From assembly GCA_031253955.1 (NCBI GenBank), contig JAIRVJ010000071.1, positions 1 to 37,167 on the forward strand: a stretch of DNA of 37,167 nt, read 5' to 3'. Below the pieces are notes generated by a model, which saw nothing but the letters and a program-made list of their open reading frames with translations, was not told the DNA's origin and did not search any database. Within the stretch, counting starts at the first letter, position 1, and each line of letters starts with the position of its first letter. Made by a program: the position numbers and the translations under genes. Of this stretch, positions 6,690 to 33,562 are shown piece after piece. This DNA comes from Burkholderiaceae bacterium (GTDB lineage Bacteria > Pseudomonadota > Gammaproteobacteria > Burkholderiales > Burkholderiaceae_C).

Positions 6690-6989
6690 ATGAAAGCCAG
6701 CAACATCCTCGAAACCATAGGACGCACGCCGCACGTGCGCATCCGCCGGCTATTCGGCCCCCATGCCCAGGTTTGGGTCAAGAACGAGCGCGCCAACCCC
6801 AGCGGCTCGATCAAGGACCGCATCGCACAGGCGATGGTCGAAGACGCCGAACAAAGCGGCCAGCTCAAGCCCGGTGGCACGATCATCGAACGGTATCTGC
6901 CGGTGCAAGGGTATTTGCCGGGGTCAGCGTGGCGTGCATGGCAGGCGCGCGGCCTTGACGCAAGGCCATCTTTTGGCGCGAGTCATTGA
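6690..6989 (+). pseudogene. 5' fragment of a cysteine synthase gene (cysK/cysM type)
   Basis: The first 67 codons encode a good O-acetylserine sulfhydrylase N-terminus: ILETIGRTPHVRI, the PLP-binding NPSGSIKDR with Lys42, then QLKPGGTIIE. The family continues PTSGNTG at this point. Here the frame runs into RYLPVQGYLPG and 30 further residues with no similarity, stopping at 6989. The family length is about 300 residues, so over three quarters is missing and no remainder is found downstream of the nos cluster. A good ribosome binding site (AGGAGA at 6678-6683) remains. The break at about 6890 marks the left boundary of the block carrying nosZ. The protein would lack the substrate-binding loop and is surely inactive. 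Confidence 0.88.
6951..6974 (+). terminator. Candidate rho-independent terminator after the broken cysteine synthase
   Basis: Stem GGCCTTG / CAAGGCC with a 3-base loop (6951-6967), followed by atctttt. It lies inside the non-homologous tail of the cysteine synthase fragment and ahead of the nosZ promoter region. It could keep read-through out of nosZ. Confidence 0.5.
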
Positions 6990-7052
6990 CAGATCGAAAC
7001 ATTTTTTGATCTAGGTTAATCTTCTGGAAATAAAAAAGGCGGATGATAGATA
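6986..7052 (+). promoter_or_regulatory. Candidate nosZ promoter with FNR/Dnr-like box
   Basis: TTGAT-ctag-GTTAA at 7006-7019 has one perfect half-site and one 3/5 half-site of the FNR/Dnr consensus TTGAT-N4-ATCAA. If it acts at -41.5, transcription would start near 7054, and the AT-rich 7042-7052 (gatgatagata) would be the -10 region. A consensus-like TTGACA lies at 6986-6991 without a well-spaced -10. Oxygen-responsive control is expected for N2O reductase, but this box is imperfect. Confidence 0.4.
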
Positions 7053-7079
7053 TGGACAATTTGTCAACAGGAGCCAGAT

Positions 7080-9380
7080 ATGAATAGGAAAAGAGTGAAG
7101 TCCGGCCTGCTGGTGCTGGCAGCGGGGGTAGGGCTTGTTGCGGCAAGTGCCAGCTGGGGAGCGGAATCCCTGCAGGATGTCATGAAGCGCAGGAACCTGT
7201 CGCAGCAGGATCTGCTGGCGGCAGCCAAGACCTACGTGCCGACCGGCAAGCGCGACGAGTTCCTTGCGCTCAGTTCCGGCGGCCAATCGGGACAGATCAT
7301 TGTTTACGGCGTCCCCTCGATGCGTATCCTCAAGTACATCGGGGTGTTCACGCCGGAACCTTGGCAAGGCTACGGCTACGACGAGGAATCGAAGGCGGTG
7401 CTGGCCGGCGGCAGGATCGACGGCAAGGACATCACCTGGGGCGACACGCACCACCCGGCCATCTCCGAAACCAACGGCGAATATGACGGCCAGTTCCTGT
7501 TCATCAACGACAAGGCCAACCCGCGCATCGCTGTGGTGGATCTGCGCGACTTCGAGACCAAGCAGATCGTGGTCAACCCGATCTTCAAGTCCGACCACGG
7601 TGGCGCCTTCGTCAGCCCGAATACCGACTACATCATCGAGGCATCCCAGTATGCCGCTCCGCTGGAGAACAAGAAGTTCTATCCGCTGGAAGAATTCAAC
7701 GACAAATATCGCGGCGGCGTGACCTACTGGAGGTTCAACCGCGAGGAAGGCCGGATTGATGTGAAGCAATCCTTCTCGGTCGAACTGCCGCCCTACAGCC
7801 AGGATCTTTCCGACTTCGGCAAAGGCCCGTCCGACGGCTGGTCGTTCACCAACTCGTTTTGCTCCGAGCGTTATGTCGGCGGCATCGAGAAAGGCCGTCC
7901 GCCCTATGAGGCCGGCTGCTCGGCCAAGGACACCGACTATCTGCATGTGATCAACTGGAAAAAAGCCGTCGAGCTGTTCAAGCAGGGCAAGACCAAGAAG
8001 ATCAACGGCCACGACGTGATCATGATGGATACCGCCATCAAAGAAGGCATCCTGTACCTGATTCCGGAAGCCAAGTCGCCGCACGGCGTGGACGTGACCC
8101 CAGACGGCAAATACATCGTCGTTGCCGGCAAACTCGATACTCACGTATCGGTATTTGACTTCGACAAGATCATGGCGGCCATCAAAGCCGGCAAGATCGA
8201 GTCCAGGGATCCGTATGGCATCCCGGTCCTGAGCATGAAAGATACGCTGCATAACCAGGTGGAGCTTGGCCTCGGCCCGCTGCATACGCAGTTCGACTCC
8301 AAGCCTTGCATCGCTTACACGTCGCTGTATGTGGACAGCCAGGTCGCCAAGTGGGATTTCTGTGATGGCAAGGTGCTCGACAAGATTTCCGTCCACTACA
8401 ACATCGGCCACCTGATGACCATGGAGGGCGATTCGACCAAACCCAAGGGTCATTACCTCGTTGCCCTGAACAAACTGGCGATTGACCGCTTCAACCCGGT
8501 CGGCCCGCTGCACCCGCAGAACCACCAGTTGATCGACATCAGCAACGACAAGATGGTGCTCTTGTACGACATGCCGATTCCGCTGGGCGAGCCGCACTAC
8601 ACGGTGGCGATCGCTGCCGACAAGCTCAAGCCTGGCATCCGGTATGCGGTCGGCACCAACAGCCGCACCGACAAGCCTTCGCCCTACGCCGTGCGCGCCG
8701 GCGAGGAAAAAACGGTGCGCGAGGGTAACAAGGTCACGGTCTACGGTACCGCGATCCGCTCGCACTTCACGCCGGAAACCATTGAGGCGGAAGTCGGCGA
8801 CGAGGTCACCATCCATCTGACCAACCTTGAACGCGCCGAGGACGAAACGCACGGCTTCACGGTATCGACCTACAACGTCCATGCCTCTCTTGAGCCGGGC
8901 AAGACCATCTCGGTGAAATTCAAGGCTGATAAGGAAGGCGTCTATCCGTACTACTGCACCGAGTTCTGCTCCGCGCTGCACCTCGAAATGCAGGGTTACC
9001 TGCTGGTCAAGCCCAAGGGCTGGAAACCGACCCAGGCGGCGACACTGGCCGCGCAGTCCTACACTGAGCAGGACTACAAGAATCAGTTGAAGAAAGTCGC
9101 CGACACCCAGGCCGTGATCGACTCCGTGGTGGCTTACATCACCAGCACCAACTACAAGGACTTCCCGGAAGCAGTCGCCATGGTGGATGACGCCTTCGAC
9201 CAAGCCGGCAAGATCCCCGATGTGAAGGCCAAGGCTGAAGCCGCGGCGGCCAAGAAGGATTGGGCCAATGCCGTCCTCTGGGCCGAGCAGATCTGGCAAT
9301 ACCAGGTCAAGACCGCCGACCTTGGCTTGCGCGCCAAGACCTACCTGGAGCAAAATCCGGGAACCAAAAAAATCAAGTAG
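7080..9380 (+). CDS. nosZ: Nitrous oxide reductase, clade II (Sec-exported) NosZ
   Basis: Periplasmic copper enzyme reducing N2O to N2. The 766-residue protein starts with a Sec-type signal (basic MNRKRVK, hydrophobic core, ASASWGA cleavage around residue 28) and lacks the twin-arginine motif of clade I. An N-terminal beta-propeller carries seven histidines expected for the CuZ centre: His124 and 125 (DTHHP), 173 (DHGGA), 335 (SPHGVD), 402 (GPLHTQF), 444 (GHL), 506 (EPHYTV). The CuA cupredoxin domain has His591, Cys626, Cys630, His634 and Met637 (CTEFCSALHLEM). About 110 helical, Lys/Ala-rich residues follow CuA, without a haem motif. AGGAG at 7069-7073 fixes the start. It is first in the nos cluster. 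Confidence 0.98.
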   Translation: MNRKRVKSGLLVLAAGVGLVAASASWGAESLQDVMKRRNLSQQDLLAAAKTYVPTGKRDEFLALSSGGQSGQIIVYGVPSMRILKYIGVFTPEPWQGYGYDEESKAVLAGGRIDGKDITWGDTHHPAISETNGEYDGQFLFINDKANPRIAVVDLRDFETKQIVVNPIFKSDHGGAFVSPNTDYIIEASQYAAPLENKKFYPLEEFNDKYRGGVTYWRFNREEGRIDVKQSFSVELPPYSQDLSDFGKGPSDGWSFTNSFCSERYVGGIEKGRPPYEAGCSAKDTDYLHVINWKKAVELFKQGKTKKINGHDVIMMDTAIKEGILYLIPEAKSPHGVDVTPDGKYIVVAGKLDTHVSVFDFDKIMAAIKAGKIESRDPYGIPVLSMKDTLHNQVELGLGPLHTQFDSKPCIAYTSLYVDSQVAKWDFCDGKVLDKISVHYNIGHLMTMEGDSTKPKGHYLVALNKLAIDRFNPVGPLHPQNHQLIDISNDKMVLLYDMPIPLGEPHYTVAIAADKLKPGIRYAVGTNSRTDKPSPYAVRAGEEKTVREGNKVTVYGTAIRSHFTPETIEAEVGDEVTIHLTNLERAEDETHGFTVSTYNVHASLEPGKTISVKFKADKEGVYPYYCTEFCSALHLEMQGYLLVKPKGWKPTQAATLAAQSYTEQDYKNQLKKVADTQAVIDSVVAYITSTNYKDFPEAVAMVDDAFDQAGKIPDVKAKAEAAAAKKDWANAVLWAEQIWQYQVKTADLGLRAKTYLEQNPGTKKIK

Positions 9381-9404
9381 GCTCTAACAGAGCGAACGGT
9401 ACTG

Positions 9405-9427
9405 GCGGGCGGCTGCGGGCCGCCCGC
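9405..9427 (+). terminator. GC-rich hairpin between nosZ and the first cytochrome gene
   Basis: A perfect 9-base stem (gcgggcggc / gccgcccgc) with a 5-base loop, followed by ttccttt. The weak U-run suggests partial termination or 3'-end protection of the nosZ message rather than a full stop, since the downstream genes belong to the same pathway. Confidence 0.5.
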
Positions 9428-9451
9428 TTCCTTTGATCTCAGGGAGAAAAA

Positions 9452-9769
9452 ATGAAACCCCAGTTGCTGATCTTCGCGGCGCTCATGGCGCTTGCCGCCA
9501 ACCCGGTCTTGGCCGCTCCCGATGGCGCCAAGCTTTTTCAGGACAAGACCTGCTGGTCGTGCCACGGCAAGGACGCCAAAAAGCCCCTCCTGCCCGAGTA
9601 TCCGAAGATCGCCGGGCAAAGCGCCAAGTACGCCGAGATGCAAATGCACGACATCAAGAGCGGCAAGCGCGCCAACGGCAACACTGCCGCCATGAAGGCC
9701 ATCATGGTACTGGTCAATGACGACGAAATCAAAATTCTCGCCGAGTACCTTTCCAAAATGCAGCCTTGA
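9452..9769 (+). CDS. Periplasmic monohaem cytochrome c
   Basis: A 105-residue protein with a Sec signal peptide ending at ANPVLA (about residue 21) and one haem-binding CWSCH motif (Cys34, Cys37, His38). Met residues in the second half (for example in KYAEMQMHD or AAMKAIM) could supply the sixth ligand. The pattern PKIAGQSAKYAEMQMHDIKSGKR followed by a C-terminal helix (DDEIKILAEYLSKMQP) is that of class I cytochromes of the c553/c4 type. The ribosome binding site AGGGAG lies just upstream. Placed directly after nosZ, it is a likely electron donor to CuA, like the NosC cytochromes of epsilonproteobacterial clusters, although one-to-one equivalence is not shown. Confidence 0.93.
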   Translation: MKPQLLIFAALMALAANPVLAAPDGAKLFQDKTCWSCHGKDAKKPLLPEYPKIAGQSAKYAEMQMHDIKSGKRANGNTAAMKAIMVLVNDDEIKILAEYLSKMQP

Positions 9770-9870
9770 AAACCCACACTCCAATCAGTGACACAAGGCG
9801 ACAGCGATGCAAGGCAACCGGCATGTTGCCTAGAATGCAACCCAGTCACCCGTCCAAGAGGAAGAAAGCC

Positions 9871-10599
9871 ATGAAAAAGCATGTAATCCTGACCGCCGCA
9901 TTGCTCGGCGGCTCACTGGCCTTGGCCCAGGTGCCGGTCAAGAAATCCGGAATCGAGGCGCAAGGCTATCAGTGGAACGCCCAGGAAGGTGAGAAGATTG
10001 AAGCCTTGCACAAGAAAGGCGACATCAAGAACGGCGAGGAAGCCTATGAAGTCTGCGGCGCCTGTCACCTGCCTTCCGGCGCCGGACGGCCCGACGGCAC
10101 CTTTCCGCAGCTGGCCGGTCAGCACAGCACGGTGCTGATCAAGCAGATGGCCGACATTCGTGAAGGCCTGCGCGACAACCCGACCATGTATCCGTTCGCC
10201 AAGGTGCTGACCGATCCGCAGGAGCTGGCCGATGTCTCGGCTTATATCCAGAGCCTGTGCATTCCGACCAACCACGGCAAATACGAGGGCGCGGACGCAG
10301 CCGTGCAAATCGCCACCGGCAGGGATCTGTACGAGAAGGAATGCAAGACTTGTCATGGCGTCAACGGCGAGGGCGACAAGGAAAAGTTCTATCCGGTCAT
10401 TGCAGGCCAGCACTACAAGTACCTGCTGCGCCAAATGACGGATATCCGGGACGGCAAGCGCCGCAACGCCAACCCTGACATGGTGACGATCATCAAGAAG
10501 TACGACGACAAGCAGTTGGTGGCTATTTCCGCCTTCCAGTCCAGCATGACGATGCCTGGCGCCATGTGCAAGCCCGCCGCTGCTCCCAAGAAAAAGTGA
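9871..10599 (+). CDS. Periplasmic dihaem cytochrome c (c4-like)
   Basis: A 242-residue protein with a signal peptide cleaved near LALAQ (residue 20) and two CXXCH motifs: CGACH at 62-66 and CKTCH at 158-162. The two halves are similar (FPQLAGQHSTVLIKQMADIREGLR and YPVIAGQHYKYLLRQMTDIRDGKR), showing a duplicated class I fold as in cytochrome c4. The frame is open upstream to 9766, but the ATG at 9871 follows an AAGAGGAAG site and begins the signal peptide. It probably relays electrons from the quinone-side NosB/G/H proteins to NosZ, alone or with the monohaem cytochrome. The C-terminus is lysine-rich. Confidence 0.93.
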   Translation: MKKHVILTAALLGGSLALAQVPVKKSGIEAQGYQWNAQEGEKIEALHKKGDIKNGEEAYEVCGACHLPSGAGRPDGTFPQLAGQHSTVLIKQMADIREGLRDNPTMYPFAKVLTDPQELADVSAYIQSLCIPTNHGKYEGADAAVQIATGRDLYEKECKTCHGVNGEGDKEKFYPVIAGQHYKYLLRQMTDIRDGKRRNANPDMVTIIKKYDDKQLVAISAFQSSMTMPGAMCKPAAAPKKK

Positions 10600-10603
10600 C
10601 GGC

Positions 10604-10629
10604 ACGGCGGCAGACTACGCCGCCGTTTT
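10604..10629 (+). terminator. Hairpin between the dihaem cytochrome gene and nosB
   Basis: An 8-base stem (acggcggc / gccgccgt) with a 7-base loop, followed by TTT. Like the hairpin at 9405-9427 it could reduce transcription into the downstream maturation genes or stabilise the upstream message. Confidence 0.45.
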
Positions 10630-10649
10630 CCTGATGCAGAGAATGTTGT

Positions 10650-11633
10650 ATGTCTGACAAGAAGAGCGCAAATGTCTTGGTTGGTGGCCTGACGCTGGCA
10701 GCCTTGCTGCTGATGATCGTGGCCTATTTCGTGCCGATCTGGTGGGTTTCCCTGACCGCGCCGAACTATCCCAAGGACGCTTTTCCGGACGGCATCCGCA
10801 TTCATTTCCACTTCGATGGCGTCTATAACGGCTGCAAAACAGCCGGCAAGAGCAGCCGTCTGGCCAGCGAGGTCATCCAGAAAGATCTGGGGGCCGATGA
10901 CGAACGCTACAACCCGATCACCGACGCCAAGAAAGACATGAACCAGGGCGAAGGCGCGCTCGACTGCGTTCACGAGATGAACACCATCAATCACTACGTC
11001 GGCATGTACCCGATCATCACCGGAGCGCCGGTCGAAAGGCCGCTGGCCAAGTTCTTCTTTGGCTTCTTCGGCGTCATGCTGCTGGCCTTTGCCGTTACGC
11101 ACCGCAAGCTCCGTCTGGCGATTCTCGGCGCCGGGTTTGCCGCTGTGGCCGTCTGGATGGTTGTCGACCAATATGTGCTCGGCCATCTCGCCGAGCACGT
11201 CGCTGCTTACATTGATGAAGCCGGCACCTTCTTCAGGGAGCCGGAGAAAATGCAGGTTTGGGGTCACAACGTGGCGACCGCCAGCCACATTGTCATTGCG
11301 GGGCTGATCGCCGCGATGGCCGTTGTTTTTCTGGGTGTCTGGAGGATTCGGCGCTTCGAGCTTGTCCTGGCCGCGGTGCCGGCGTTGTTGCCGGTGTTTT
11401 TCGTGGTCGAATACTCGGCATGGCTCTGGGTCTTTGGCCACAATCTGAACCAGATGGGCGCTTTCACGGTCAAGCCTTTCATGCCGACCGTGTTCGGCGA
11501 AGGCAAGGTGGCCCAGTTCACCACCAATTCCTACCCCTACTGGGGCTACGGATTGCTCCTGCTGATTTTCGTTCTCCTGGCGGTCGCCTTCTTGCTGCGG
11601 CGGCAACAATTGCGGCAAGAGGCGGCTGACTGA
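10650..11633 (+). CDS. nosB: NosB, membrane protein of clade II nos clusters
   Basis: A 327-residue polytopic membrane protein. Hydrophobic segments lie near residues 9-32, 134-150, 155-178, 208-230, 237-258 and 300-318. A periplasmic loop of roughly 100 residues (33-133) holds HFHF and two cysteines (Cys62, Cys106) plus GMYPIITGAPVERPLAKFFFG. NosB is the marker membrane protein of clade II nos clusters, found between nosZ and nosD; its molecular role is not established, with electron transfer or maturation proposed. Position here (after the cytochromes, 8 bases ahead of nosD) matches. The ribosome binding site is weak. Confidence 0.88.
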   Translation: MSDKKSANVLVGGLTLAALLLMIVAYFVPIWWVSLTAPNYPKDAFPDGIRIHFHFDGVYNGCKTAGKSSRLASEVIQKDLGADDERYNPITDAKKDMNQGEGALDCVHEMNTINHYVGMYPIITGAPVERPLAKFFFGFFGVMLLAFAVTHRKLRLAILGAGFAAVAVWMVVDQYVLGHLAEHVAAYIDEAGTFFREPEKMQVWGHNVATASHIVIAGLIAAMAVVFLGVWRIRRFELVLAAVPALLPVFFVVEYSAWLWVFGHNLNQMGAFTVKPFMPTVFGEGKVAQFTTNSYPYWGYGLLLLIFVLLAVAFLLRRQQLRQEAAD

Positions 11634-11641
11634 AAACGGTC

Positions 11642-13027
11642 ATGCGGGCGCGCCCATTTCTGCTGCTGTCTCTTGCCTTGACGCTGGCGGTCATCGGCGG
11701 GCGCATCGGTTTCGGCCAGGTGATCGGCAGCGAGACGGAAAACAGTCCGGTCACGGCGAACTCTGCTGCGGAGGACATGGGCGCGCTGCGCGTTGACGTC
11801 GACAAGCCGAAGCCGATTTTCATGCTCATCGAACGCGATCGGCGCATCTATGGGCTGAAACCCTTTCAGGAACTGGTGGATGCCGCCCCGGCTGGATCGG
11901 TGCTCAAGCCCCTGCCCGGCCAGTATGCCGGGCCGGTCACCATGACCAAGCCGCTCATCATCGACGGCGGCGGCCAGGTCACCATCGATGCCGGCGACCG
12001 CGGCACCGTGTTCACGCTCAAGACCAGCGGCGCCACGCTGCGCGGCCTGCACCTGACCGGATCGGGCGACTCTCACGATACCGACGACTCGTGCCTGGAC
12101 GTGCGCGGCAATCGCAACACCATCGAAAAAATCACCATCGACAACTGCCTGTTCGGCATCGACCTCAAGCAATCCAACGACAACGTCGTGCGGGGCAACA
12201 CCGTGCGCTCCAAGCCGGTTGATCTGGGCATACGCGGCGACGGCATCCGGCTGTGGTACAGCCGGCGCAATCTGATCGAGGGTAACCAGGTGGTGGATTC
12301 GCGCGATATGGTGGCCTGGTACTCGCACGACAACATCTACCGCAACAACATCGGTCTGCGCAGCCGCTACTCGATCCACTTCATGTTCGCCAACAACAAC
12401 GTCGTCGAAGGCAACCACTTTCAGGACAACTCCGTCGGCGTGTACTTCATGTTCACGGAAGGCGGCGTCATGCGTAACAACGTGATCTCGCACGCCACCG
12501 GCGCGACCGGCATGGCGATCGGCTTCAAGGAATCGTCCGGCACGCTGATCGAGGGCAACACGATCATCTACTGCGCCGTCGGCATCGGCTCGGACCTGTC
12601 GCCGTTCCAGCCGGGCAGCAAGGTCACCATCCGGGGCAACCGCTTTGCCTACAATGGCATCGGCATCCTTTTCAACAGCGAGCGGGGCGGCAACGAAATG
12701 CTGGGCAACGACTTCGAAGGCAACATCACCCATGTGGCCTACGGCGCCGGGCGGGCGGCGGTCGCACGCAATAACTGGAACGGCAACTACTGGGACGACT
12801 ATCAGGGCTTCGACCGCAATAACGACGGCGTCGGCGACACGCCTTACGAGATGCGCGCCTTTGCCGACAGCATCTGGATGGAAATGCCGGCAGCGCGCTT
12901 CTTCAAATCAAGCCCAGCCATGGAATTGCTGGATTTTCTTGAGCGGCTGGCTCCGTTCTCGACGCCGGATCTTCTCCTCAAGGATAATGCGCCGAGCTTT
13001 CATCCGGTGCTGGGGAGCGGATCGTGA
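11642..13027 (+). CDS. nosD: NosD, periplasmic copper-site maturation protein
   Basis: A 461-residue exported protein with an N-terminal signal or anchor (RPFLLLSLALTLAVIGG). It has a right-handed parallel beta-helix with many GN-x-I/V rungs (for example RRNLIEGN, NNVVEGN, GTLIEGN). It ends with the NosD-specific NYWDDYQGFDRNNDGVGD, then a C-terminal helix around MELLDFLERLAPF. NosD works with the NosF/NosY ABC proteins to supply sulfur or copper for CuZ assembly in apo-NosZ. The N-terminus has about 60 residues ahead of the first beta-helix rung, more than the second NosD at the cluster end. The stop overlaps the GTG start of nosG. Confidence 0.95.
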   Translation: MRARPFLLLSLALTLAVIGGRIGFGQVIGSETENSPVTANSAAEDMGALRVDVDKPKPIFMLIERDRRIYGLKPFQELVDAAPAGSVLKPLPGQYAGPVTMTKPLIIDGGGQVTIDAGDRGTVFTLKTSGATLRGLHLTGSGDSHDTDDSCLDVRGNRNTIEKITIDNCLFGIDLKQSNDNVVRGNTVRSKPVDLGIRGDGIRLWYSRRNLIEGNQVVDSRDMVAWYSHDNIYRNNIGLRSRYSIHFMFANNNVVEGNHFQDNSVGVYFMFTEGGVMRNNVISHATGATGMAIGFKESSGTLIEGNTIIYCAVGIGSDLSPFQPGSKVTIRGNRFAYNGIGILFNSERGGNEMLGNDFEGNITHVAYGAGRAAVARNNWNGNYWDDYQGFDRNNDGVGDTPYEMRAFADSIWMEMPAARFFKSSPAMELLDFLERLAPFSTPDLLLKDNAPSFHPVLGSGS

Positions 13028-13842
13028 GCGGCGCCGCGCCGCCCGGACGGCGGCAGTCCCGCCGGCGCATTTTGCGCACCCTCTTGCTGGCCGGCGGCGT
13101 GTTCGGCGCCTCCATGTCGGGTTACCTGCCGCTTGCCTACGCCAAGAAAGAGCGTTTGCGCCCGCCGGGCGCGCTGGACGAAAAGGATTTTCTGGCGTCC
13201 TGTATCAAATGTGGACAGTGCGTGCAAGTCTGCCCGGTGCAGGCCATCAAACTGGCCGATCTGGTCGATGGCTTTGGCGTCGGCACGCCCCATATCGAGG
13301 CACGTGAGCAGGCCTGCGATTTTTCTTGCGATGTGGCTCAGTGCATCCTCGCCTGCCCTACCGGGGCGCTGGTTTATGAGAAGCCGGAATTTATGTCGGT
13401 GCGGCCCGGCGCGCCGCTAGCGGAAAAACCGACGCTGCTGGCCAAAGAACACGATGCCGAGCCTACCCTCAACCTCAAAGAGCGCATAGGCGTGGCCCGG
13501 CTGACGCGCCCCGAAGGCTGTCTGGCGCGGCAGGGCAAGGGCTTCAAGGGTCAGGCGCGTGGTCCGCAGTTTCAGGGGAGACTGCGCTACTTGAGCGTGA
13601 ACCGCCGGACCCCGATCAAGGTGGCCGATCATCCCTACGATACGGCGCTGTGCGATCTCTGTGTGCAGGTTTGTCCGATCAAGGATGCGATTGCTATCGA
13701 GACCATCACCGCTTCCGATGGCAGCCAGTATCAGTCGCCCGTGGTGCATGAGCAATGCATCGGCTGCGGCGCTTGCGAAATGATCTGCCCCACCGAACCG
13801 GCCTGCATCGAGGTGATGCCTGGGCAAGGATGGCACACATGA
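13024..13842 (+). CDS. nosG: NosG, multi-[4Fe-4S] ferredoxin-type protein
   Basis: A 272-residue protein starting at GTG, overlapping the nosD stop (GTGA). The N-terminus has an arginine-rich SRRRIL followed by a hydrophobic stretch (LLLAGGVFGASMSG), suggesting Tat-type export or an anchor. Cysteine groups: 60/63/66/70 (CIKCGQCVQVCP), 98/102/107/111, 210/213/217, and 245/248/251/255 (CIGCGACEMICP) with Cys261, consistent with about four [4Fe-4S] clusters. It resembles NapG, and the proposed role is to form with NosH a menaquinol-oxidising path to the c-type cytochromes in clusters lacking NosR. Its TGA overlaps the nosH start. Confidence 0.94.
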   Translation: MSGAAPPGRRQSRRRILRTLLLAGGVFGASMSGYLPLAYAKKERLRPPGALDEKDFLASCIKCGQCVQVCPVQAIKLADLVDGFGVGTPHIEAREQACDFSCDVAQCILACPTGALVYEKPEFMSVRPGAPLAEKPTLLAKEHDAEPTLNLKERIGVARLTRPEGCLARQGKGFKGQARGPQFQGRLRYLSVNRRTPIKVADHPYDTALCDLCVQVCPIKDAIAIETITASDGSQYQSPVVHEQCIGCGACEMICPTEPACIEVMPGQGWHT

Positions 13843-14822
13843 GCCAAATCATGCGACGCCGTTTCGGCGAGCAGATTCTGCTGATGCTCGGCCGCGAGCC
13901 GGGCAAGCCGCAAGAAATCAGCGAGCGCGCCCGCCAGATTCACGAACTCAAGCGGATGACCAACAAGGCCGACTTGCAGGAAGCTAGGAAAGCGCAGCGG
14001 GAGCAAAAAGCGCCCTCCCACAAGTGGCGCAACCGCCGCTGGATCGTGCTGGCGCTGGTCAATCTGCTGTTCGTCGTTTCCTACCATTTCGATGTGCAGA
14101 TTCTGGAAGGCGCGCTGACCGCTTCCCGCTTCGCCGGCTTTCATCTCATCGACCTCAATTCGGCGCTGCAGGTGATGCTGGCGCACAAGCACGTCATTGT
14201 CAATTTGCTCATCGGCACCGGCACGGTGCTGGTCTTGTGGGCGCTGCTGGGCGGCAGGACATTCTGCTCCTGGGTCTGTCCCTACCATTTCCTGTCGGAG
14301 CTGGCCGAGAAAATCCATCTGCGGCTGGTCAAGATGAAGCTGGTCACCGACCAAACCATCGACCGCCGGCTGCGCAGCCTGTTCTGGCTGCTGTTTGCCG
14401 CGCTGGCGCTGGTGACCGGCTACACGGTCTATGAGGCCATTTCGCCGACCGGCATCGTTTCGCGCGCGCTCATCTACGGCCCCGGCCTTGCCCTGCTCTG
14501 GGTGCTGGCGCTGCTCGCGTTCGAGATTTTCTTTTCGCGCCGCGCTTGGTGCCGCTACGTTTGCCCGATCGGCCTGACCTATGGCGTGGTCGGCATTATT
14601 TCGCCGGTGCGCGTCAAATACACGCTCGAAGCGTGCCTGCACGAAGGCGACTGCCGCAAGGTCTGCCTGGTGCCGCACGTGCTGGATACCGTTATCAAGG
14701 GCCGCGCGGTCGATGCCGAAGTGCCCATCGGGTCTGACTGCACGCGCTGCGGCTTGTGCGTGGATGCTTGCCCGACCGGCTCGCTGAAATTTGAAGTCAA
14801 GGGTTTGAGCAAACTGCTCTGA
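13839..14822 (+). CDS. nosH: NosH, NapH-like membrane iron-sulfur protein
   Basis: A 327-residue inner-membrane protein. A long soluble N-terminus (about 65 residues) precedes transmembrane segments near 68-84, 118-137, 183-205, 213-233 and probably 255-270. Cytoplasmic motifs CSWVCP (Cys143, Cys147) and WCRYVCPIG are the NapH/NosR-type cysteine pairs. At the C-terminus CLHEGDCRKVC and CTRCGLCVDACP supply cysteines for two [4Fe-4S] clusters. It is expected to oxidise quinol together with NosG. ATGA overlap with nosG sets the start at 13839; an upstream in-frame ATG at 13830 is possible. No FMN-binding domain of NosR is present. Confidence 0.94.
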   Translation: MSQIMRRRFGEQILLMLGREPGKPQEISERARQIHELKRMTNKADLQEARKAQREQKAPSHKWRNRRWIVLALVNLLFVVSYHFDVQILEGALTASRFAGFHLIDLNSALQVMLAHKHVIVNLLIGTGTVLVLWALLGGRTFCSWVCPYHFLSELAEKIHLRLVKMKLVTDQTIDRRLRSLFWLLFAALALVTGYTVYEAISPTGIVSRALIYGPGLALLWVLALLAFEIFFSRRAWCRYVCPIGLTYGVVGIISPVRVKYTLEACLHEGDCRKVCLVPHVLDTVIKGRAVDAEVPIGSDCTRCGLCVDACPTGSLKFEVKGLSKLL

Positions 14823-14849
14823 GCTTGGCAAAACCTTCCCGGGAAATCC

Positions 14850-15716
14850 ATGATCCGTTTCGACAGCGTTGTCAAGACCTTCCGCCGCGCCCGTGTGCTC
14901 GATGGCATCAGCCTGGAAATCGCGCTCGGCGAGCGCGTGGCCCTGATCGGCTCCAACGGCGCCGGCAAGACCACGCTGATCCGCTGTCTGCTGGGCGAGT
15001 ATGCCCATGAAGGGCAAGTCACCATCGACGGCCATCACCCGCGCCGCGAGCGCACGCGGGTGCTCCGGGAAATCGGTTTCGTACCGCAGTTGCCGCCGCC
15101 GCTGAAAATGCCGGTCGGTCAACTGATCGCCTTTGCCGCCAGGTTGTGCGGCACCGATCCGCAACGCATTGTCGATCTGGCCAGCCGCCTCGGCCTGGAT
15201 ACGGCCCCGATTCTGAACCGGCAGTTCATCCGGCTTTCCGGTGGCATGAAGCAGAAACTGCTGATCGCCATCGCGCTGGGCCGCGACGCTCGCGTGCTGG
15301 TGCTAGACGAACCGGCGGCCAACCTCGACCCGGAAGCGCGCAAGATTTTCTTCGAGCTGCTGGCCGAACGCGCTGAAGCAGCCACCATGCTGATTTCCAG
15401 CCACCGCTTGAACGAAGTGTCGGCGCTGGTCAACCGCGTGATCGAACTGGACATGGGCAAAGTTGTGCTCGACGACCGGGTGGCTGACGACGTATCGCTG
15501 TCGGGCTTGCTGGATTGCCGCATCACCGTCAAGCGCGCCGATCCGGCGCTGGCCAAGGCCTTGCTGGCCTGGCAGTTTGCCGATCTGGACGGCGGGCTGC
15601 AATGGCAGGGGCAGGTGGCCGGCCCCGACCGGCTGCGTTTTCTGGGTATGACCTCGCGTTACGTGGGCCTGATTACCGATCTCAAGCTGACGGAAATAAC
15701 GGAGACCGCGCCATGA
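14850..15716 (+). CDS. nosF: NosF, ABC-type ATPase for NosZ maturation
   Basis: A 288-residue cytoplasmic ATP-binding protein. Walker A GSNGAGKTT (residues 34-42), Q-loop FVPQL, signature LSGGMKQK, Walker B VLVLDEPAANLDP and the H-switch SSHRLNE are all intact. It pairs with the membrane protein NosY and periplasmic NosD to drive CuZ assembly. About 75 residues follow the nucleotide-binding domain. The gene begins 27 bases after nosH, and its TGA overlaps the nosL ATG, so NosF and NosL are coupled. Confidence 0.95.
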   Translation: MIRFDSVVKTFRRARVLDGISLEIALGERVALIGSNGAGKTTLIRCLLGEYAHEGQVTIDGHHPRRERTRVLREIGFVPQLPPPLKMPVGQLIAFAARLCGTDPQRIVDLASRLGLDTAPILNRQFIRLSGGMKQKLLIAIALGRDARVLVLDEPAANLDPEARKIFFELLAERAEAATMLISSHRLNEVSALVNRVIELDMGKVVLDDRVADDVSLSGLLDCRITVKRADPALAKALLAWQFADLDGGLQWQGQVAGPDRLRFLGMTSRYVGLITDLKLTEITETAP

Positions 15717-16186
15717 CCAGCCGCCGCCATCTTCTGGCCGCCGGCTTTGCGCTCACGCCGCTAGCCGCCACGATTCTTTCTGCCTGCAAGCAAGCGGGAA
15801 ACTGGCCCGCGGGCATGAAGCCGATCATCTGGGACCGCGATATCTGCGTGCGGTGCAGCATGGCGATTTCGGACCGGCGCTTCGCCGCCGAAATGAGCGG
15901 CGGCCCAAAAGACACCGCCTTCAAGTTCGATGACATCGGCTGCGCCATGATCTGGCAGCGCGACAAGGCCAAGGACTATCCTTGGATGAACGAGGCGGCC
16001 ACCCGCATCTGGGTAGCCGACGTGTACAGCAAGGGCGGCGAGGTCAATTGGCTGGACGCGCGCGCCGCCCACTACGTGAAAAAAACTTCGCCGATGGGCT
16101 ACGACCTCGGCGCGAGCAGCCAGGCGGAAGCGGGCGCGGTGGATTTCCAGACCATGCGCGAGCGCATCCTGGCCAGTGAGAAATAA
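15713..16186 (+). CDS. nosL: NosL, copper chaperone lipoprotein
   Basis: A 157-residue lipoprotein with a basic start (MTSRRH) and lipobox LSAC (Cys25 lipidated), anchored to face the periplasm. The metal-binding motif DICVRCSM (Cys45, Cys48, Met50) lies early in the mature protein. NosL delivers Cu(I) for NosZ maturation with the NosDFY complex. Many NosL proteins have CxxCGM; here the Gly is replaced by Ser. In this cluster nosL sits between nosF and nosY rather than after nosY, and it overlaps nosF by four bases. Confidence 0.93.
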   Translation: MTSRRHLLAAGFALTPLAATILSACKQAGNWPAGMKPIIWDRDICVRCSMAISDRRFAAEMSGGPKDTAFKFDDIGCAMIWQRDKAKDYPWMNEAATRIWVADVYSKGGEVNWLDARAAHYVKKTSPMGYDLGASSQAEAGAVDFQTMRERILASEK

Positions 16187-16200
16187 ATCTGAGTTGAACC

Positions 16201-17028
16201 ATGTCGCAACTGTGGCTTACTGCAAAACTGGATATCGTTGAATCCCTGCGCTCGCGCTGGTTTCTGATCTACACGCTGGTCTTCGGCGGCATCGTCGCGC
16301 TGCTGTTCCTGTTTGGGCTGACCGAATCGCGGGTGCTCGGCTTCATCGGCCTGTCGCGCCTGCTGGTGACTTACATCCAGCTCACGATGGCGATTTTGCC
16401 GATCTTCGTGCTCATCACCACCGTCCGCTCGGTGGCGGGCGACCGCGAAGCGGGCGTGTACGAATACCTGCTGTCACTGCCGGTGTCGCTGTCGGCATGG
16501 TTCTGGGGCAAGATTCTTGGCCGTTATCTGATGATCTTTCTGCCGGTTTTCGCCGCCATGGTCGTGGCGGTGCTGATCGGCCTTGTGCGCGAGATCGAAG
16601 TTCCCTGGGGCATGTTCGGCTACTACACGGCGCTGCTGGCCACGATGGGCGCGTGCTTTCTGGGCATCGGCATGCTGGTGTCGGCGCTGGCTCGCAGCAC
16701 CGACATGGCGCAGGGCGCGGCCTTTCTGATTTGGCTGACGCTGCTGCTGTTTCTGGACCTGATCTTGCTCGGCGTCATGATTCAGGGCAAGGTCAGTCCC
16801 GAAACGGCAATCGCCGTCGCGCTGGCCAATCCGCTCCAGGTTTTCCGCACCGCCGCGCTCTCGCTGTTCGATCCGCAACTGATCGTGCTGGGGCCTTCGG
16901 CCTTCGTCATTCTCGACACCTTCGGCGCCACCGGCTACCAGATCTTTGCGCTGGCCTATCCGCTGGCGCTTGGCGTGGTCTGCGCCACCGTCGGCTATCT
17001 GGCTTTCCGCCGTGGAGACTTGCCATGA
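16201..17028 (+). CDS. nosY: NosY, ABC-2 type permease for NosZ maturation
   Basis: A 275-residue inner-membrane protein with about six hydrophobic segments (near 20-40, 58-76, 110-128, 142-162, 174-194 and 245-265). The N-terminal LTAKLDIVESLRSRWFLIYT and the SVAGDREAGVYEYLLSLPVS segment are characteristic of NosY. It forms the membrane part of the NosDFY complex with NosF. It begins 14 bases after nosL, and its stop overlaps the start of the TlpA-like gene. Confidence 0.95.
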   Translation: MSQLWLTAKLDIVESLRSRWFLIYTLVFGGIVALLFLFGLTESRVLGFIGLSRLLVTYIQLTMAILPIFVLITTVRSVAGDREAGVYEYLLSLPVSLSAWFWGKILGRYLMIFLPVFAAMVVAVLIGLVREIEVPWGMFGYYTALLATMGACFLGIGMLVSALARSTDMAQGAAFLIWLTLLLFLDLILLGVMIQGKVSPETAIAVALANPLQVFRTAALSLFDPQLIVLGPSAFVILDTFGATGYQIFALAYPLALGVVCATVGYLAFRRGDLP

Positions 17029-17528
17029 AAATTCGTGTTTTCCTGATCGCGCTGCTGCTGTCGCCCATTTGGGTGTTCGCGCAGGTATCCGTGCCTGACT
17101 CGGCGCCCGCCACCCTGTTCAGTGCGCCGCTGGTCGATTTTTCCGGCCAGCCCACGACGCTTGCCAGCTTGCGCGGTCAGCCGCTCATCGTCAACTTCTG
17201 GGCGCGCTGGTGCGGCCCCTGCCGGGTCGAGATTCCCGACCTCGTGGCCGAACAAGCCCGCATGAAAAGCGCCGGCGTGCAAGTGGTCGGCGTGGCGCTG
17301 GACGACAAGCCGGACGCCGTGCGCGATTTCGCCAAGGCCTACGACATCGACTATCAGGTGCTGCTGCTCAAGGACAACGGGCCGGATTTGCTCAAACAGC
17401 TTGGCAACCCCCAGGCCGGCCTGCCCTACACGCTGGTCATTGACCGGAGCGGCAAGGTCGTCTCGCACAAGCTTGGCGCCATGTCGCGCGCCGAAATGGC
17501 ATCGGCGATGGAAGCCGCCAGCAAATAG
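17025..17528 (+). CDS. TlpA-like periplasmic thioredoxin
   Basis: A 167-residue exported thioredoxin-fold protein with a signal peptide ending at VFAQ (about residue 20). The active site WCGPC has Cys63 and Cys66, and GLPYTLVID provides the cis-proline. The VGVALDDKPDAVRDFAKAYDIDY segment is typical of TlpA/ResA. These proteins reduce disulfides in copper or haem sites outside the cytoplasm. Its ATGA overlap with nosY and place before a second nosD make a role in NosZ, NosL or cytochrome c maturation likely, but this is inference. Confidence 0.92.
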   Translation: MKIRVFLIALLLSPIWVFAQVSVPDSAPATLFSAPLVDFSGQPTTLASLRGQPLIVNFWARWCGPCRVEIPDLVAEQARMKSAGVQVVGVALDDKPDAVRDFAKAYDIDYQVLLLKDNGPDLLKQLGNPQAGLPYTLVIDRSGKVVSHKLGAMSRAEMASAMEAASK

Positions 17529-17554
17529 GCTGAACTGTCGCGCTCGCAAACCTC

Positions 17555-18754
17555 ATGCCCGCCTGGTTGCTTGGCTGTCTTCTTCTCGTTGTCGCGCCGG
17601 CCTGGGCGTCCATCCCTCTGCAACCCCTGATCGACGCCACGCCGGCGGGCGGGCATCTTGCGCTCGCGCCGGGGGAATACGCCGGCCCGGTCACGATAGA
17701 CAAACCGATCCATCTGGACGGCGGCGGCAAGGCTGTTCTGCGCGGCGACGCTAACAGCACTGTGCTCACGCTGCGCGCCAGCGCCAGCAGCCTGCGCGGT
17801 CTGGTCATCAGCGGCAGCGGCGATCTGCACGACCGCATCGACGCCGGCCTGCTCATCGAAGGCGACGACAACCTGATTGAAGACAACCGCATGGATGACG
17901 TGCTATTCGGCATCCACGTCAAGCAGGGCAACCGCAACCGCATCATCGCCAACCGCATTCTGGGCAAGCCGCACAACTCCGGTTTGCGCGGCGACGGCCT
18001 GCGGCTGTGGTACAGCCGTCACAACCTGATCGAAGGCAACCATTTCGAGCGCGTGCGCGACCTGATCTTCGACAATTCGCCCGAAAACCGCTTCATCGGC
18101 AACACCCTGCACGATGGCCGTTGCAGCATGGAAATCGTCTTTTCCCCGAAGATGATCATCGAGCGCAACGCCTTCACCCACACCGCCACCGGCATCATCG
18201 CCCTGTACTCCAGCGGCCTGGTCATTCGCGGCAACCGCATCGTCCATGCGCGCGGCGGCGGCGGCGCGGGCATTGCCTTCAAGGAAAGCAGCGAAACCCT
18301 GGTCGAGGGCAACGAGATCATCGACTGCGCCGTCGGCCTGTCATCCGGCCCCCCGCCCGGCGGCGGCGCGGCGCTCATCATCCGCAACAACCGCTTTGCC
18401 TACAACATCATCGGCATGTACTTCTACGGCGAGATCAGCCGCCACCAGATCGTCGGCAACCGTTTCGAGCAAAACCTCACGCAAGTGAGCGCCAGTGCGC
18501 CGTCAGCGGCCAATACCAACCACTGGCAGGACAACTACTGGAGCGACTATCAGGGGTTTGACCGCGACGGTGATGGCATCGGCGACACGCCCCACGAGAT
18601 CGTTGCTTACGCCGACCGTATCTGGATGGAAACGCCCAAGGCCACGTTCTTTCGCAATTCGCCCGCGCTGGAATTGCTCGATTTCCTCGAAAGGCTGGCG
18701 CCTTTCGCCGAGCCTGCGCTCCTCTTGCGCGACCCGGCGCCGCGCATGAAATAA
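17555..18754 (+). CDS. Second NosD-like beta-helix protein
   Basis: A 399-residue paralogue of the nosD product at 11642-13027. It has a signal peptide (MPAWLLGCLLLVVAPAWAS) and begins the beta-helix almost at once, lacking the ~60-residue N-terminal region of the first copy. Matching blocks include APGEYAGPVTIDKPI versus LPGQYAGPVTMTKPL, GDGLRLWYSRHNLIEGN versus GDGIRLWYSRRNLIEGN, and NYWSDYQGFDRDGDGIGDTP versus NYWDDYQGFDRNNDGVGD. Both end with LELLDFLERLAPF-type helices. All rungs are intact, with no frameshift. It could assist or replace NosD in the NosFY complex, or act on another copper protein. It is the last gene of the cluster. Confidence 0.92.
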   Translation: MPAWLLGCLLLVVAPAWASIPLQPLIDATPAGGHLALAPGEYAGPVTIDKPIHLDGGGKAVLRGDANSTVLTLRASASSLRGLVISGSGDLHDRIDAGLLIEGDDNLIEDNRMDDVLFGIHVKQGNRNRIIANRILGKPHNSGLRGDGLRLWYSRHNLIEGNHFERVRDLIFDNSPENRFIGNTLHDGRCSMEIVFSPKMIIERNAFTHTATGIIALYSSGLVIRGNRIVHARGGGGAGIAFKESSETLVEGNEIIDCAVGLSSGPPPGGGAALIIRNNRFAYNIIGMYFYGEISRHQIVGNRFEQNLTQVSASAPSAANTNHWQDNYWSDYQGFDRDGDGIGDTPHEIVAYADRIWMETPKATFFRNSPALELLDFLERLAPFAEPALLLRDPAPRMK

Positions 18755-19055: not shown

Positions 19056-19391
19056 TTATTTGACCTCTTCCACCGTCAGCATGACATAGACGCCGTCGAT
19101 TTTTGCGGTGGTGAAACGGATCTTGGCGCCGGGCTTGAGTTTGGCGAACATGGCCTCGTCCTTGATGGTGTAGGGCATGGCCGTCATGGGGGCCATGTTC
19201 AGGCTTTTGATCTCGCCGTGCTTGATCCTGACCCGGTGGGTTTCGGGATCGGCGGAGACGACTTCGCCATCGACCACCTCGGCGGACGCGGACTGCTGGG
19301 CGGGCGCGGCGGCGGGTTGGGCGAAGGCCCACGGGGCGGCTGCCATCATGCCGCCGATCAGCAGGGCGCTGAAACAAGTCCGTTTGTTCAT
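19056..19391 (-). CDS. CusF-like periplasmic copper-binding protein
   Basis: A 111-residue protein from MNKRTCFSALL, preceded by a good AAGGAG site; longer in-frame starts lack a signal. The signal peptide ends at PWAFA (about residue 23). The mature part has the small OB-fold pattern of CusF: DGEVVSADPETHRVRIKHGEI, then LNMAPMTAMPYTIKD with several methionines, ending with KIDGVYVMLTVEEV. CusF binds Cu(I)/Ag(I) through Met-Met-His-Trp; here the equivalent motif is Met-rich without a Trp. It is convergent to the nos cluster and could buffer periplasmic copper for it, though it is not in the operon. Confidence 0.85.
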   Translation of the reverse strand: MNKRTCFSALLIGGMMAAAPWAFAQPAAAPAQQSASAEVVDGEVVSADPETHRVRIKHGEIKSLNMAPMTAMPYTIKDEAMFAKLKPGAKIRFTTAKIDGVYVMLTVEEVK

Positions 19392-19485
19392 CGTTGAACT
19401 CCTTGCAGAAAAATTTGATTTTGCATCGCAACCCGCGAAATTGCAATAAACCATTCGCGCCAAGGGGAAAGCGCGGAACCGGCTC

Positions 19486-20052
19486 TTACCCATGCAGCCG
19501 CGAATGGCGCGGCAGGTGCGCCATCAGGAACTCCATCTGGTCGGCCAGAATGCGGCGGTTGCGCAGGATGAAGTCTTCCCACAGGCTGGGCACGTAAGGC
19601 GCGTAGATGAGCGGCATGTGCGCCTGCTCCGGCGTGCGGTTGCTCTTGCGGTGGTTGCAGGCGCGGCAGGCGGTGACGACGTTCATCCAGTGATCCAGAC
19701 CGTTTTGCGCGAAGGGGGTGATGTGCTCGCGCGTGAGGTCTGCGTCGTCGAGATGTTCGCCGCAATAGGCGCACAGGTTGCGGTCGCGCGCGAACAGCTT
19801 GCTGTTGGTGAGACCGGGGCGCAGATCGAAGGGGTTGATGCGCGGCGCGCCCTTGGTGCCGATGATGCTGCCCACTTCGATGACCGACTGCCGCCCGGTG
19901 ATGGCGTTGTGCCCGCCGCGAAAAAGTGCCACCTTTGCGCCCGCTTCCCAGCGCACCTCGCCGGCGGCGTAATGCAGCACCGCCTGTTCGAGCGAGAGCC
20001 ACGCCTGCGGCAGCCCCTGCGCGGAGAGCTTGAGCACTTTCACTGCATGCAC
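19486..20052 (-). CDS. HNH endonuclease family protein
   Basis: A 188-residue protein, probably starting at GTG (20052), with another GTG at 20043. An N-terminal ~85-residue region (RGGHNAITGRQSVIEVGSIIGTKGAP) precedes an HNH domain with CAYCGEHL, DLTREHITPFAQNG and a second pair in VTACRACNHRKSN. The four cysteines form the structural zinc site, and the EHI His plus NHR Asn/His form the catalytic part. Such proteins occur widely in Burkholderiales as housekeeping nucleases of unknown target, so this need not be mobile. Adjacent genes do not suggest a restriction system. Confidence 0.85.
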   Translation of the reverse strand: MHAVKVLKLSAQGLPQAWLSLEQAVLHYAAGEVRWEAGAKVALFRGGHNAITGRQSVIEVGSIIGTKGAPRINPFDLRPGLTNSKLFARDRNLCAYCGEHLDDADLTREHITPFAQNGLDHWMNVVTACRACNHRKSNRTPEQAHMPLIYAPYVPSLWEDFILRNRRILADQMEFLMAHLPRHSRLHG

Positions 20053-20224: not shown

Positions 20225-21103
20225 TCAGCCATTGCCGCCGGCCCGCAGCGCGGCGATGCGCGCTTCCATCGGCGGGTGGCTGGCAAACCAATGGCCGGGA
20301 AGGCCCGCGATGCCCATCGCGGCCATGGCCTTGGGCATTTCCTGCCCCTGGGCGTGCATGCCGCCCAGACGCTCCAGCGCGCGAATCATCGACTGAGGCT
20401 GGCCCAGCAGCCGGGCCGAGCCGCTGTCGGCGCGGAACTCGCGCTGGCGCGAGAACCACGCCACCACGATATTGGCCAGCAGGCCGAACACCACTTGCAG
20501 CACCATCACGGTGACGAAATAGCCGACGCCGGAGCCGCGCTCGTTATCGCGGCGCAGGTAGCTGTCCACCAGCGAGCCGATCACGCGGCTGGCGAAGAAC
20601 ACGAAGGTGTTCATCACGCCCTGAATCAGCGTCATCGTAACCATGTCGCCGTTGGTCACGTGCGCGATTTCGTGGCCGAGCACGGCCTTGACTTCTTCGC
20701 GGCTCATGCCTTGCAGCAAGCCGGTAGAAACGGCCACCAGCGCCGAGTTCTTGAACGCGCCGGTGGCAAAGGCGTTGGGTTCGCCCTCATAAATGCCCAC
20801 GTCCGGCATTCCGATGCCGGCCTGGTCGGCCAACTGGCGCACGGTGGCCAGCAGCCACGCTTCGTCGGCATTGCCGCCTGGCTCCTGGATGATGCGCACG
20901 CCCATGCTCATCTTGGCCATGAACTTGCTCATCAGTAGCGAGATGATGGCGCCGGTAAAGCCCACCACCAGCGAGAGCGCCATCAACGAGCCGATGTTGG
21001 TGAGGCCGCCTTCGTAATGACCCAGGCCGAACAGGGCGGCGATGGCCCCCACCACCACCATCACAGCAAGGTTGGTCAGCAGGAAAAGAAAGATGCGTTT
21101 CAT
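20225..21103 (-). CDS. htpX: Membrane zinc metalloprotease HtpX
   Basis: A 292-residue inner-membrane protease that degrades misfolded membrane proteins, acting alongside FtsH. Two N-terminal transmembrane helices (near 5-27 and 38-58) precede the M48 catalytic domain with HEIAH at residues 144-148. Further hydrophobic stretches lie near 158-176 and 195-215, and the third zinc ligand Glu is in [10 protein letters not shown]. The length is normal. It is a single gene flanked by a repeat downstream and the pyrC end upstream. Confidence 0.96.
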
Positions 21104-32728: not shown

Positions 32729-33157
32729 ATGAAAACATTCAGCGCCAAACCCGCTGAGGTGACGCACGAGTGGTTTGTGATTGACGCCACCGACAAGGTG
32801 CTCGGCCGGGTAGCCAGCGAAGTTGCCCACCGTCTGCGCGGCAAGCATAAAGCCATTTACACGCCTCACGTGGATACGGGCGACTTCATCGTCGTCGTCA
32901 ACGCCGCCAAACTTCGCGTCACCGGCGCCAAGGATATCGGCAAGAAGTACTACCGCCACACCGGCTACCCCGGCGGCATCCGCGAGACCAACTTCCGCGA
33001 CATGCAGGCCAAGCACCCCGGCCGCGCGCTGGAAAAGGCCGTCAAGGGTATGCTGCCCAAAGGCCCGCTCGGTTACGCCATGATCAAAAAGCTCAAGGTC
33101 TATGGCGAGGCGGAGCATCCGCACTCGGCCCAGCAACCCAAGGCGCTTGCCGTTTAA
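32729..33157 (+). CDS. rplM: 50S ribosomal protein L13
   Basis: A 142-residue ribosomal protein of the large subunit. Markers: [39 protein letters not shown], the H[12 protein letters not shown] segment, [12 protein letters not shown] and [17 protein letters not shown] precedes the ATG by nine bases. It is the first gene of the conserved rplM-rpsI operon, 12 bases ahead of rpsI. Confidence 0.99.
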
Positions 33158-33169
33158 AGGAGTACCGCG

Positions 33170-33562
33170 ATGATTGGTGAATGGAACAATGGCACTGGCC
33201 GCCGCAAGACCAGCGTGGCCCGCGTGTTTCTGAAAAAAGGCTCCGGCCAGATCACGATCAACGGCAAGCCGATTGAGGAATTCTTTGGCCGCCAGACCTC
33301 GATCATGATCGCCCGGCAGCCGTTGGCGCTCACGCAAAACGTCGAGAACTTCGACATTCAGGTGAATGTGTTCGGCGGAGGCGAATCGGGCCAGGCTGGA
33401 GCGGTGCGCCACGGCATCACGCGCGCGCTGCTCGACTACGACGCCAGCCTCAAGCCCCAACTGTCGGCAGCCGGCTACGTTACGCGCGACGCCCGCGAGG
33501 TGGAGCGCAAGAAGGTCGGCCTGCATTCGGCGCGCCGGCGCAAGCAGTTCAGCAAGCGCTGA
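33170..33562 (+). CDS. rpsI: 30S ribosomal protein S9
   Basis: A 130-residue small-subunit protein. The N-terminus [16 protein letters not shown], the loop [14 protein letters not shown]-type segment, and the C-terminal tail [17 protein letters not shown] that reaches the P-site tRNA are all present. The ribosome binding site AAAGGAG lies eight bases upstream. A strong terminator follows. Confidence 0.99.

Follow-up and report, generated by a model that had tools for sequence, protein, structure and literature searches.

The window analysed here is the whole of contig JAIRVJ010000071.1 (37167 bases; contig C56 of its assembly), part of a metagenome-assembled genome (MAG) of 2601517 bases in 167 contigs, and at positions 7080 to 18754 it holds a full clade II operon for nitrous oxide (N2O) reduction (nos), which confirms the central claim of a preliminary description of this DNA. 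This is very probably a working operon of a complete denitrifier of Comamonadaceae type, which would have gained it horizontally from a Rhodocyclales-like donor and would now carry it beside a truncated chromosomal cysM gene. Gene content, the clade of NosZ, the position of the host and a gene for each step of denitrification can be read directly from the genome and its comparisons. These comparisons covered 29 genomes of the host genus, here called g1 (the window's own genome included, several incomplete), and 77 named clade II loci fetched by NosZ (best 80 of 355 confirmed stretches); labels beginning with G, L and C denote genomes compared, loci fetched and contigs of the window's own assembly, respectively.

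Gene content of the operon and the clade of NosZ

The operon is a run of twelve genes on the plus strand, consisting of nosZ, two cytochrome c genes, nosB, nosD, nosG, nosH, nosF, nosL, nosY, a gene for a TlpA-like thioredoxin and a second nosD, and it is preceded by a candidate regulatory site.

7006..7019, plus strand: FNR/DNR-like site TTGATCTAGGTTAA, 61-74 bases upstream of the nosZ start (motif search)
7080..9380, plus strand: nosZ, clade II (Sec-dependent) N2O reductase, 766 aa (TIGR04246, PF18764, solved enzymes, trees)
9452..9769, plus strand: mono-heme cytochrome c, NosC type (PF00034; one CxxCH, CWSCH; conserved order)
9871..10599, plus strand: di-heme cytochrome c, NosC type (two stretches of PF00034; CGACH and CKTCH)
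10650..11633, plus strand: nosB, membrane protein (place, six hydrophobic segments, homologue in 72 of the 77 named loci)
11642..13027, plus strand: nosD, first copy, copper-site maturation beta-helix protein (TIGR04247, 372.7 bits, cut-off 300)
13024..13842, plus strand: nosG, NapG/MauM-type ferredoxin (two 4Fe-4S motifs, conserved place)
13839..14822, plus strand: nosH, NapH-type membrane ferredoxin (TIGR02163, 233.9 bits, cut-off 213.05)
14850..15716, plus strand: nosF, ABC ATPase (ABC ATPase families, those shown under their cut-offs; conserved place)
15713..16186, plus strand: nosL, lipoprotein copper chaperone (PF05573, 23.9 bits against a cut-off of 24)
16201..17028, plus strand: nosY, ABC-2 type permease (PF12679, 84.6 bits)
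17025..17528, plus strand: TlpA/ResA-like thioredoxin, tlpA (CGPC; ResA/TlpA families under cut-off)
17555..18754, plus strand: nosD, second copy (TIGR04247, 332.6 bits, cut-off 300)

Assignment of NosZ to clade II rests on several comparisons. The protein passes the model for Sec-dependent enzymes (TIGR04246; 911.7 bits, cut-off 625) and fails that for Tat-dependent ones (TIGR04244; 404 bits, cut-off 625), by which clade I membership was rejected, as was a clade III lactonase-type enzyme (NF052460; 190.4 bits, cut-off 700). In a tree of 95 NosZ rows, nine clade I rows are split from the 86 others with a support of 100, and the five clade I NosZ proteins of genus g1 sit beyond a long, fully supported branch from that of the window. 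Solved N2O reductases (PDB) align with the window NosZ over both domains with E values down to 2e-97, and the protein extends ∼115 aa beyond the CuA domain at its C-terminus. Motifs with the seven CuZ histidines and the CuA motif CTEFCSALHLEM were found in alignment with the solved enzymes, the CuA and CuZ ligand positions being those that we take to bind the metals; at one CuA position the window protein has Glu instead of the Trp found in both solved clade I structures aligned (CNWFC). The N-terminus, MNRKRVKSGLLVLAAGVGLVAASASWGA, contains no twin-arginine motif as judged by eye, and its signal peptide is predicted to be of the Sec type, in line with the preliminary description.

The same description had listed NosB, NosG and NosH as present and NosR and NosX as missing, and these claims largely stand. 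No Pfam or NCBIfam family matched NosB, the name of which rests on homology and place; NosH exceeds its model's cut-off, and NosG carries two CxxCxxCxxxC clusters while scoring 129.8 bits with the NapG model, under the cut-off of 269. NosL shows a lipobox-like LSAC and a CxxC. NosR was not detected in the window, and the best match in the genome (96.85% complete) reaches only 38 bits, compared with 446-595 bits in five clade I congeners, although none of the 29 genomes attains the model cut-off of 1000. NosX was not found among the window proteins scanned, a genome-wide search for NosX/ApbE not having been made. All eleven genes from nosZ to tlpA occur in the same order in 43 of the 77 named loci, and the other 34 hold a leading part of this series. 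The operon has two nosD genes, the end of the second being the end that the preliminary description gave to the cluster; a nosD homologue after tlpA was seen in four of the 77 loci, many of which end near there, and is not present after tlpA in L125, the locus of G028.

From these genes we infer the activity, electron route and regulation of the system. Electrons would pass from quinol through NosG and NosH to the two c-type cytochromes and on to periplasmic NosZ, which Sec would export unfolded; NosD, NosF and NosY together with NosL would fill the copper sites of NosZ, and the TlpA-like protein would keep thiols reduced. The site TTGATCTAGGTTAA fits an FNR-type regulator, such a site being expected before nosZ because nos is a denitrification operon. 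Its name follows the FNR/DNR consensus as taken here; TTGATNNNNRTYAA was matched exactly once in the window, and with up to one mismatch nine sites were found against 3.1 expected.

The host and its denitrification genes

Besides the operon, the nos contig carries aroA, rplM, rpsI, pyrF, purC and others, and the landmarks on which the placement of the contig and of the operon borders depends are as follows.

6690..6889, plus strand: 5′ part of cysM (cysteine synthase), truncated (77-85% nucleotide match to congeners)
19056..19493, minus strand: CusF-like copper-binding periplasmic protein (PF11604, 62.7 bits)
20225..21103, minus strand: M48 peptidase (m48), where similarity to congeners resumes (PF01435; 77-81% nucleotide identity to congeners)
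32729..33562, plus strand: rplM and rpsI, host core genes (PF00572, PF00380; 75-87% nucleotide identity to congeners in the rows that cover them)

To the right of the operon (18760-37167), the contig is 73-87% identical at the nucleotide level to congeners and ∼69-75% identical to other families of the order, figures that cover the matches listed only. On the left, congener identity is 72-82% between ∼471 and 3913, and few congeners match the pil genes at 4044-6498, mostly at 65-68% with some short pieces of up to 77%, short repeats aside. RpoB of the window's genome shares 88-91% identity with most congeners (85% with G027 and 84% with G024) and 84-88% with other genera of the family; the figure is 87% for the Rhodoferax-named G061, and 71-78% in the best piece for genomes bearing the names Sulfurisoma, Azonexus, Pseudothauera, Dechloromonas, Azospira, Zoogloeaceae and Azoarcus. 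Of the 55 genomes compared, 45 gave a match, G028 and the genome of L042 giving none. Among the 36 rows of an RpoB tree, the genome falls within a group made up of exactly the 17 g1 members used (support 99), with nine outgroup rows across a branch of support 100. Since contig flanks, RpoB identities and the RpoB tree agree, the host is of Comamonadaceae type and apart from Rhodocyclales, as far as these sequences define it, and the nos contig belongs to the host genus. The preliminary description, which had suspected a Comamonadaceae genome and named Rhodocyclaceae as the competing placement by marker genes, was thus right about the host, a Rhodocyclaceae host being ruled out by the RpoB identities and tree; for the likely origin of the operon it is the other placement that holds, the relatives of the operon being mainly Rhodocyclales or unnamed betaproteobacteria.

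Some public labels were treated with caution. No evidence for Comamonadaceae was drawn from those of L046 ('Burkholderiaceae') and L090 ('Rhodoferax'), since the support-100 branch separates the RpoB proteins of these genomes (75 and 76%) from the family. Both labels look wrong, as does that of L017 (WRJY01000326.1), which is named Desulfovibrionaceae, yet its genome is given as belonging to the Comamonadaceae-type genus g1.

The remaining steps of denitrification are encoded on other contigs of the assembly. Contig C3 carries NirS, which matches cd1 nitrite reductases with an E value of 1.8e-196, NirJ (576 bits, cut-off 515.45) and further cytochrome-d1 matches; C23 carries a quinol nitric oxide (NO) reductase (qNor) of 759 aa with an E value of 0 to solved enzymes; and C74 carries NapA (1505.6 bits, cut-off 930.55). 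No match over the cut-off was found in the genome for nirK. With reductase genes for nitrate, nitrite, NO and N2O all in one genome, the organism would be a complete denitrifier by gene content, in which NapA, NirS and the quinol NO reductase would act before N2O is finally reduced to N2. It had been suggested in the preliminary description that the host might be a non-denitrifying N2O consumer, having clade II nosZ but neither a nitrite nor an NO reductase. The observation behind this is correct, as no nir or nor match was obtained on the nos contig (one weak row with the nirK model is NosZ itself), and clade II carriers are described as often having no other denitrification genes in the available part of one survey (PMC11409646). 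The suggestion fails, however, because NapA, NirS, NirJ and qNor are encoded in the same genome, and cytochrome-d1 matches of >490 bits, like that of its own NirS, were detected in 16 of the 29 g1 genomes, including its own, G001 and G028. Such a lifestyle is therefore most improbable.

The proposed insertion site and the probable origin of the operon

A match to the propeller domain of nosZ was obtained in eight of the 29 g1 genomes, five of them with clade I and three with clade II enzymes. The clade I NosZ proteins (G004, G014, G017, G022 and G027) are 32-34% identical to that of the window, and a NosR match lies on the nosZ contig in four of these genomes and on another contig in G027. Clade II was found in the window's own genome, G001 and G028, none of which has NosR, and the window NosZ shares 90% identity with the G028 protein and 86% with the G001 protein. 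Clade I being the commoner form in the genus (five of eight nosZ-bearing genomes) supports what the preliminary description had given as usual for Comamonadaceae denitrifiers. Its accompanying view that clade II is unusual in the family agrees with the count in g1, but must be qualified by the clade II nosZ of Rhodoferax and Sphaerotilus MAGs (accessible text of PMC11409646).

The left border of the operon coincides with a broken host gene. The cysM gene is cut after ∼67 codons, the match to each of the 24 congeners listed ending at 6889 or 6891, and longer cysM reading frames exist in each of the five congeners examined. The frame of G028 contains PF00291; in this genome cysM is intact and the operon is on another contig with other flanks. 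The two operons are 82% identical from 7065, 15 bases upstream of nosZ, to the end of tlpA at 17528, and diverge beyond. In eight of the 24 congeners listed (G002, G010, G013, G015, G017, G019, G023 and G025) cysM lies near m48 on the same contig, at 2.6-9.5 kb and in the same relative orientation, with a longer cysM frame and other genes between the two in G023, G002, G017 and G025. The stretch from 6890 to 20224 is accordingly read as a foreign or replaced segment, to judge from these alignments, and it would include the CusF-like gene and an HNH gene. Neither of these two genes has a relative in 231 loci other than the window itself, and the CusF-like gene, which has no congener match among the matches listed, is probably part of the same foreign segment.

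Such borders could also arise if the nos contig, or its operon part, were Rhodocyclales community DNA that had been wrongly binned or joined. The MAG has 4.77% contamination, its NosZ resembles that of Rhodocyclales, the break in cysM falls exactly on the left border, and 18760-20223 has no congener match among those listed. Against this, the same contig matches congeners on both sides of the operon, in aroA to the left and in m48, rplM-rpsI and pyrF to the right, so that two mis-joins would be needed, and the same type of NosZ occurs in two other g1 genomes from differently named sample series, both on short contigs. An assembly or binning error is thus unlikely.

Where the operon came from was approached through NosZ trees. 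In a clade II tree with 45 rows, for which the bootstrap was not fully settled (correlation 0.980), the window, G028, G001 and L019 form one group (100/98) with L019 nested among the others; the sequences around this group are for the most part from Rhodocyclales or unnamed betaproteobacteria. L019 comes from a MAG labelled Zoogloeaceae Jx357_bin26, the RpoB of which groups with Sulfurisoma; on its contig nosZ is adjoined by a sensor-regulator pair 62-69% identical to genes in L065, L020, L067, L045 and L050, from Rhodocyclaceae, Dechloromonas and a betaproteobacterium. The most likely explanation of this pattern is that a known nos system was acquired horizontally. Vertical descent from a Comamonadaceae ancestor with clade II, followed by loss in most lineages, could be invoked given the several Comamonadaceae-type genomes that carry it, namely L060, L026 and L064 (by the RpoB of their genomes), L042 (by label) and those of g1. 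However, uniting the seven clade II rows of Comamonadaceae type in a single clade was rejected (AU p = 0.000168), the Rhodoferax loci L042 and L060 and the Burkholderiaceae loci L026 and L064 are placed elsewhere in both NosZ trees, the two Rhodoferax sequences standing apart from the others, and the operon flanks differ between the window and G028. Descent with loss is consequently improbable, and the simplest supposition is that clade II entered Comamonadaceae-type bacteria on more than one occasion.

Beyond the contamination of the MAG, which is 96.85% complete, a number of observations weigh against acquisition from a Rhodocyclales-like donor at the cysM site, or against parts of that account. 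A search for 16S in the window's genome gave no match. The cut cysM could be a mis-join, and since the neighbourhood of cysM and m48 varies among congeners (cysM is on another contig than m48 in others, e.g., G014 and G021), the empty site is not uniform. The sister of the group of the window, G028, G001 and L019 is L087/L008/L012/L085 in the 95-row tree and L021/L025 in the 45-row tree (80/75), and with this difference and weak support the donor is not pinned down; holding the three g1 NosZ proteins together without L019 was not rejected (p 0.182). A first host-gene tree of 26 genomes, from which eight with one gene only were left out, put the three clade II genomes together, if weakly (47/98). 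In a second tree including pyrF, from which five of the 26 genomes with one gene only were left out, the best topology pairs G000 with G024 and G001 with G028, although a topology uniting the three clade II carriers was not rejected (AU p 0.305). Composition does not point to recent transfer, as the operon resembles host genes in codon usage (a distance of 0.162, a low-GC island of the window standing at 0.335). That the window's genome comes from an insect gut is suggested by its relatives only.

As to the place of transfer, G028 (recorded as Desulfovibrionaceae Nt197P4bin23, WRJY01) is by its sample code a termite-gut MAG, Nt197 denoting the humus-feeding termite Neocapritermes taracua according to the available part of PMC7024585. 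G001 is recorded as Burkholderiaceae Pmx449_bin7 (JAITMV01). We infer a termite origin for the Pmx and Jx357 MAGs too, codes that do not appear in the available part of PMC9137090. The operon may have passed from its Rhodocyclales-like donor within an insect (termite) gut community. A further step, that termite-gut members of g1 replaced the clade I common in the genus by clade II from gut Rhodocyclales, perhaps more than once, is put forward tentatively, as a possibility slightly more doubtful than probable.

Several features of the window and of related loci deserve record in their own right. Related palindrome-like repeats at 1-231 and 5783-5953 share 72 bases at 85% in opposite orientation; one is the contig end and the other overlaps the start of pilW, and they recur in the same genome (88-96%) and in congeners. 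A C4 antisense RNA (RF01695; 64 bits, cut-off 45) at 27984-28067 on the minus strand has as neighbours, at 28230-31166, an HTH repressor-like gene and genes of low GC content (53-57%), and the region 27984-31166 is perhaps a remnant of a prophage or mobile element. In G028 a second, divergent NosL gene (PF05573, 81.9 bits; L125, 181-1101) lies just upstream of nosZ on the other strand, and tlpA is followed by a UbiA-like prenyltransferase and radical SAM pair (L125, 11773-13711), the counterpart of which in a termite-gut betaproteobacterium (L063, 5606-7500; 80-86% identity) lies upstream of nosZ. Weaker UbiA relatives (26-29%) follow tlpA in L024, L081 and L092; the pair may serve clade II nos in a quinone-related accessory role and may be a further indication that genes are exchanged in the gut. 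Several clade II clusters (L050, L058, L061, L080 and G055) have a near-identical second nosZ 4.7-7 kb away.

Relation to known clade II systems and significance

The gene order nosZ-c-c-B-D-G-H-F-L-Y-tlpA is shared with clusters of Rhodocyclales and their kin, including 'Ca. Desulfobacillus denitrificans' (L021), Azonexus (L036) and Accumulibacter (L027), the NosZ proteins of which are 83-86% identical to that of the window; the window differs from these clusters in its Comamonadaceae-type host and in the nosD directly after tlpA. L019 differs from it in having a regulator pair directly upstream of nosZ. The Rhodoferax MAGs represented by L042 and L060 likewise combine a Comamonadaceae host with clade II NosZ, but with 82% identity to the window protein and a separate place in the trees their clade II probably reflects a separate acquisition. 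The clade I congeners share genus and reaction with the window's host, and differ in NosZ clade and in their NosR match.

The system itself is an ordinary clade II nos operon, of a kind already known since clade II in Comamonadaceae has been published for Rhodoferax and Sphaerotilus; what is new is the host genus, the mixture of clades within one genus and the signs of transfer. The available text of PMC11409646 reports clade I in Ottowia and Rhodoferax MAGs and describes nosZ as low in horizontal transfer. No report of clade II nosZ in genus g1 or in termite-gut Burkholderiales was found in the literature, most subscription papers being outside the search. With both clades in one genus, a host gene broken at the border and a related Rhodocyclales operon, this is a good case for the study of transfer. 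It also cautions that taxonomy is a poor predictor of nosZ clade, N2O affinity and primer coverage, and that clade II is not in itself a sign of a non-denitrifying N2O sink.

Genes for nosZ2 and nirS are present in termite guts, and N2O reduction there was tied mainly to nosZ1, according to the accessible portion of PMC12993464; Burkholderiaceae are abundant in some termite lineages, at least in what is available of PMC9137090. The link to nosZ1 argues against a large role for clade II members of g1, as does the fact that Nt197, the sole relative of known source, came from a humus feeder. The clade II genomes of g1 are nevertheless candidates for part of the termite-gut nosZ2/nirS signal, and if clade I was indeed replaced within the gut, denitrifiers with nirS, qNor and clade II nosZ would provide a genome-resolved source for that part.

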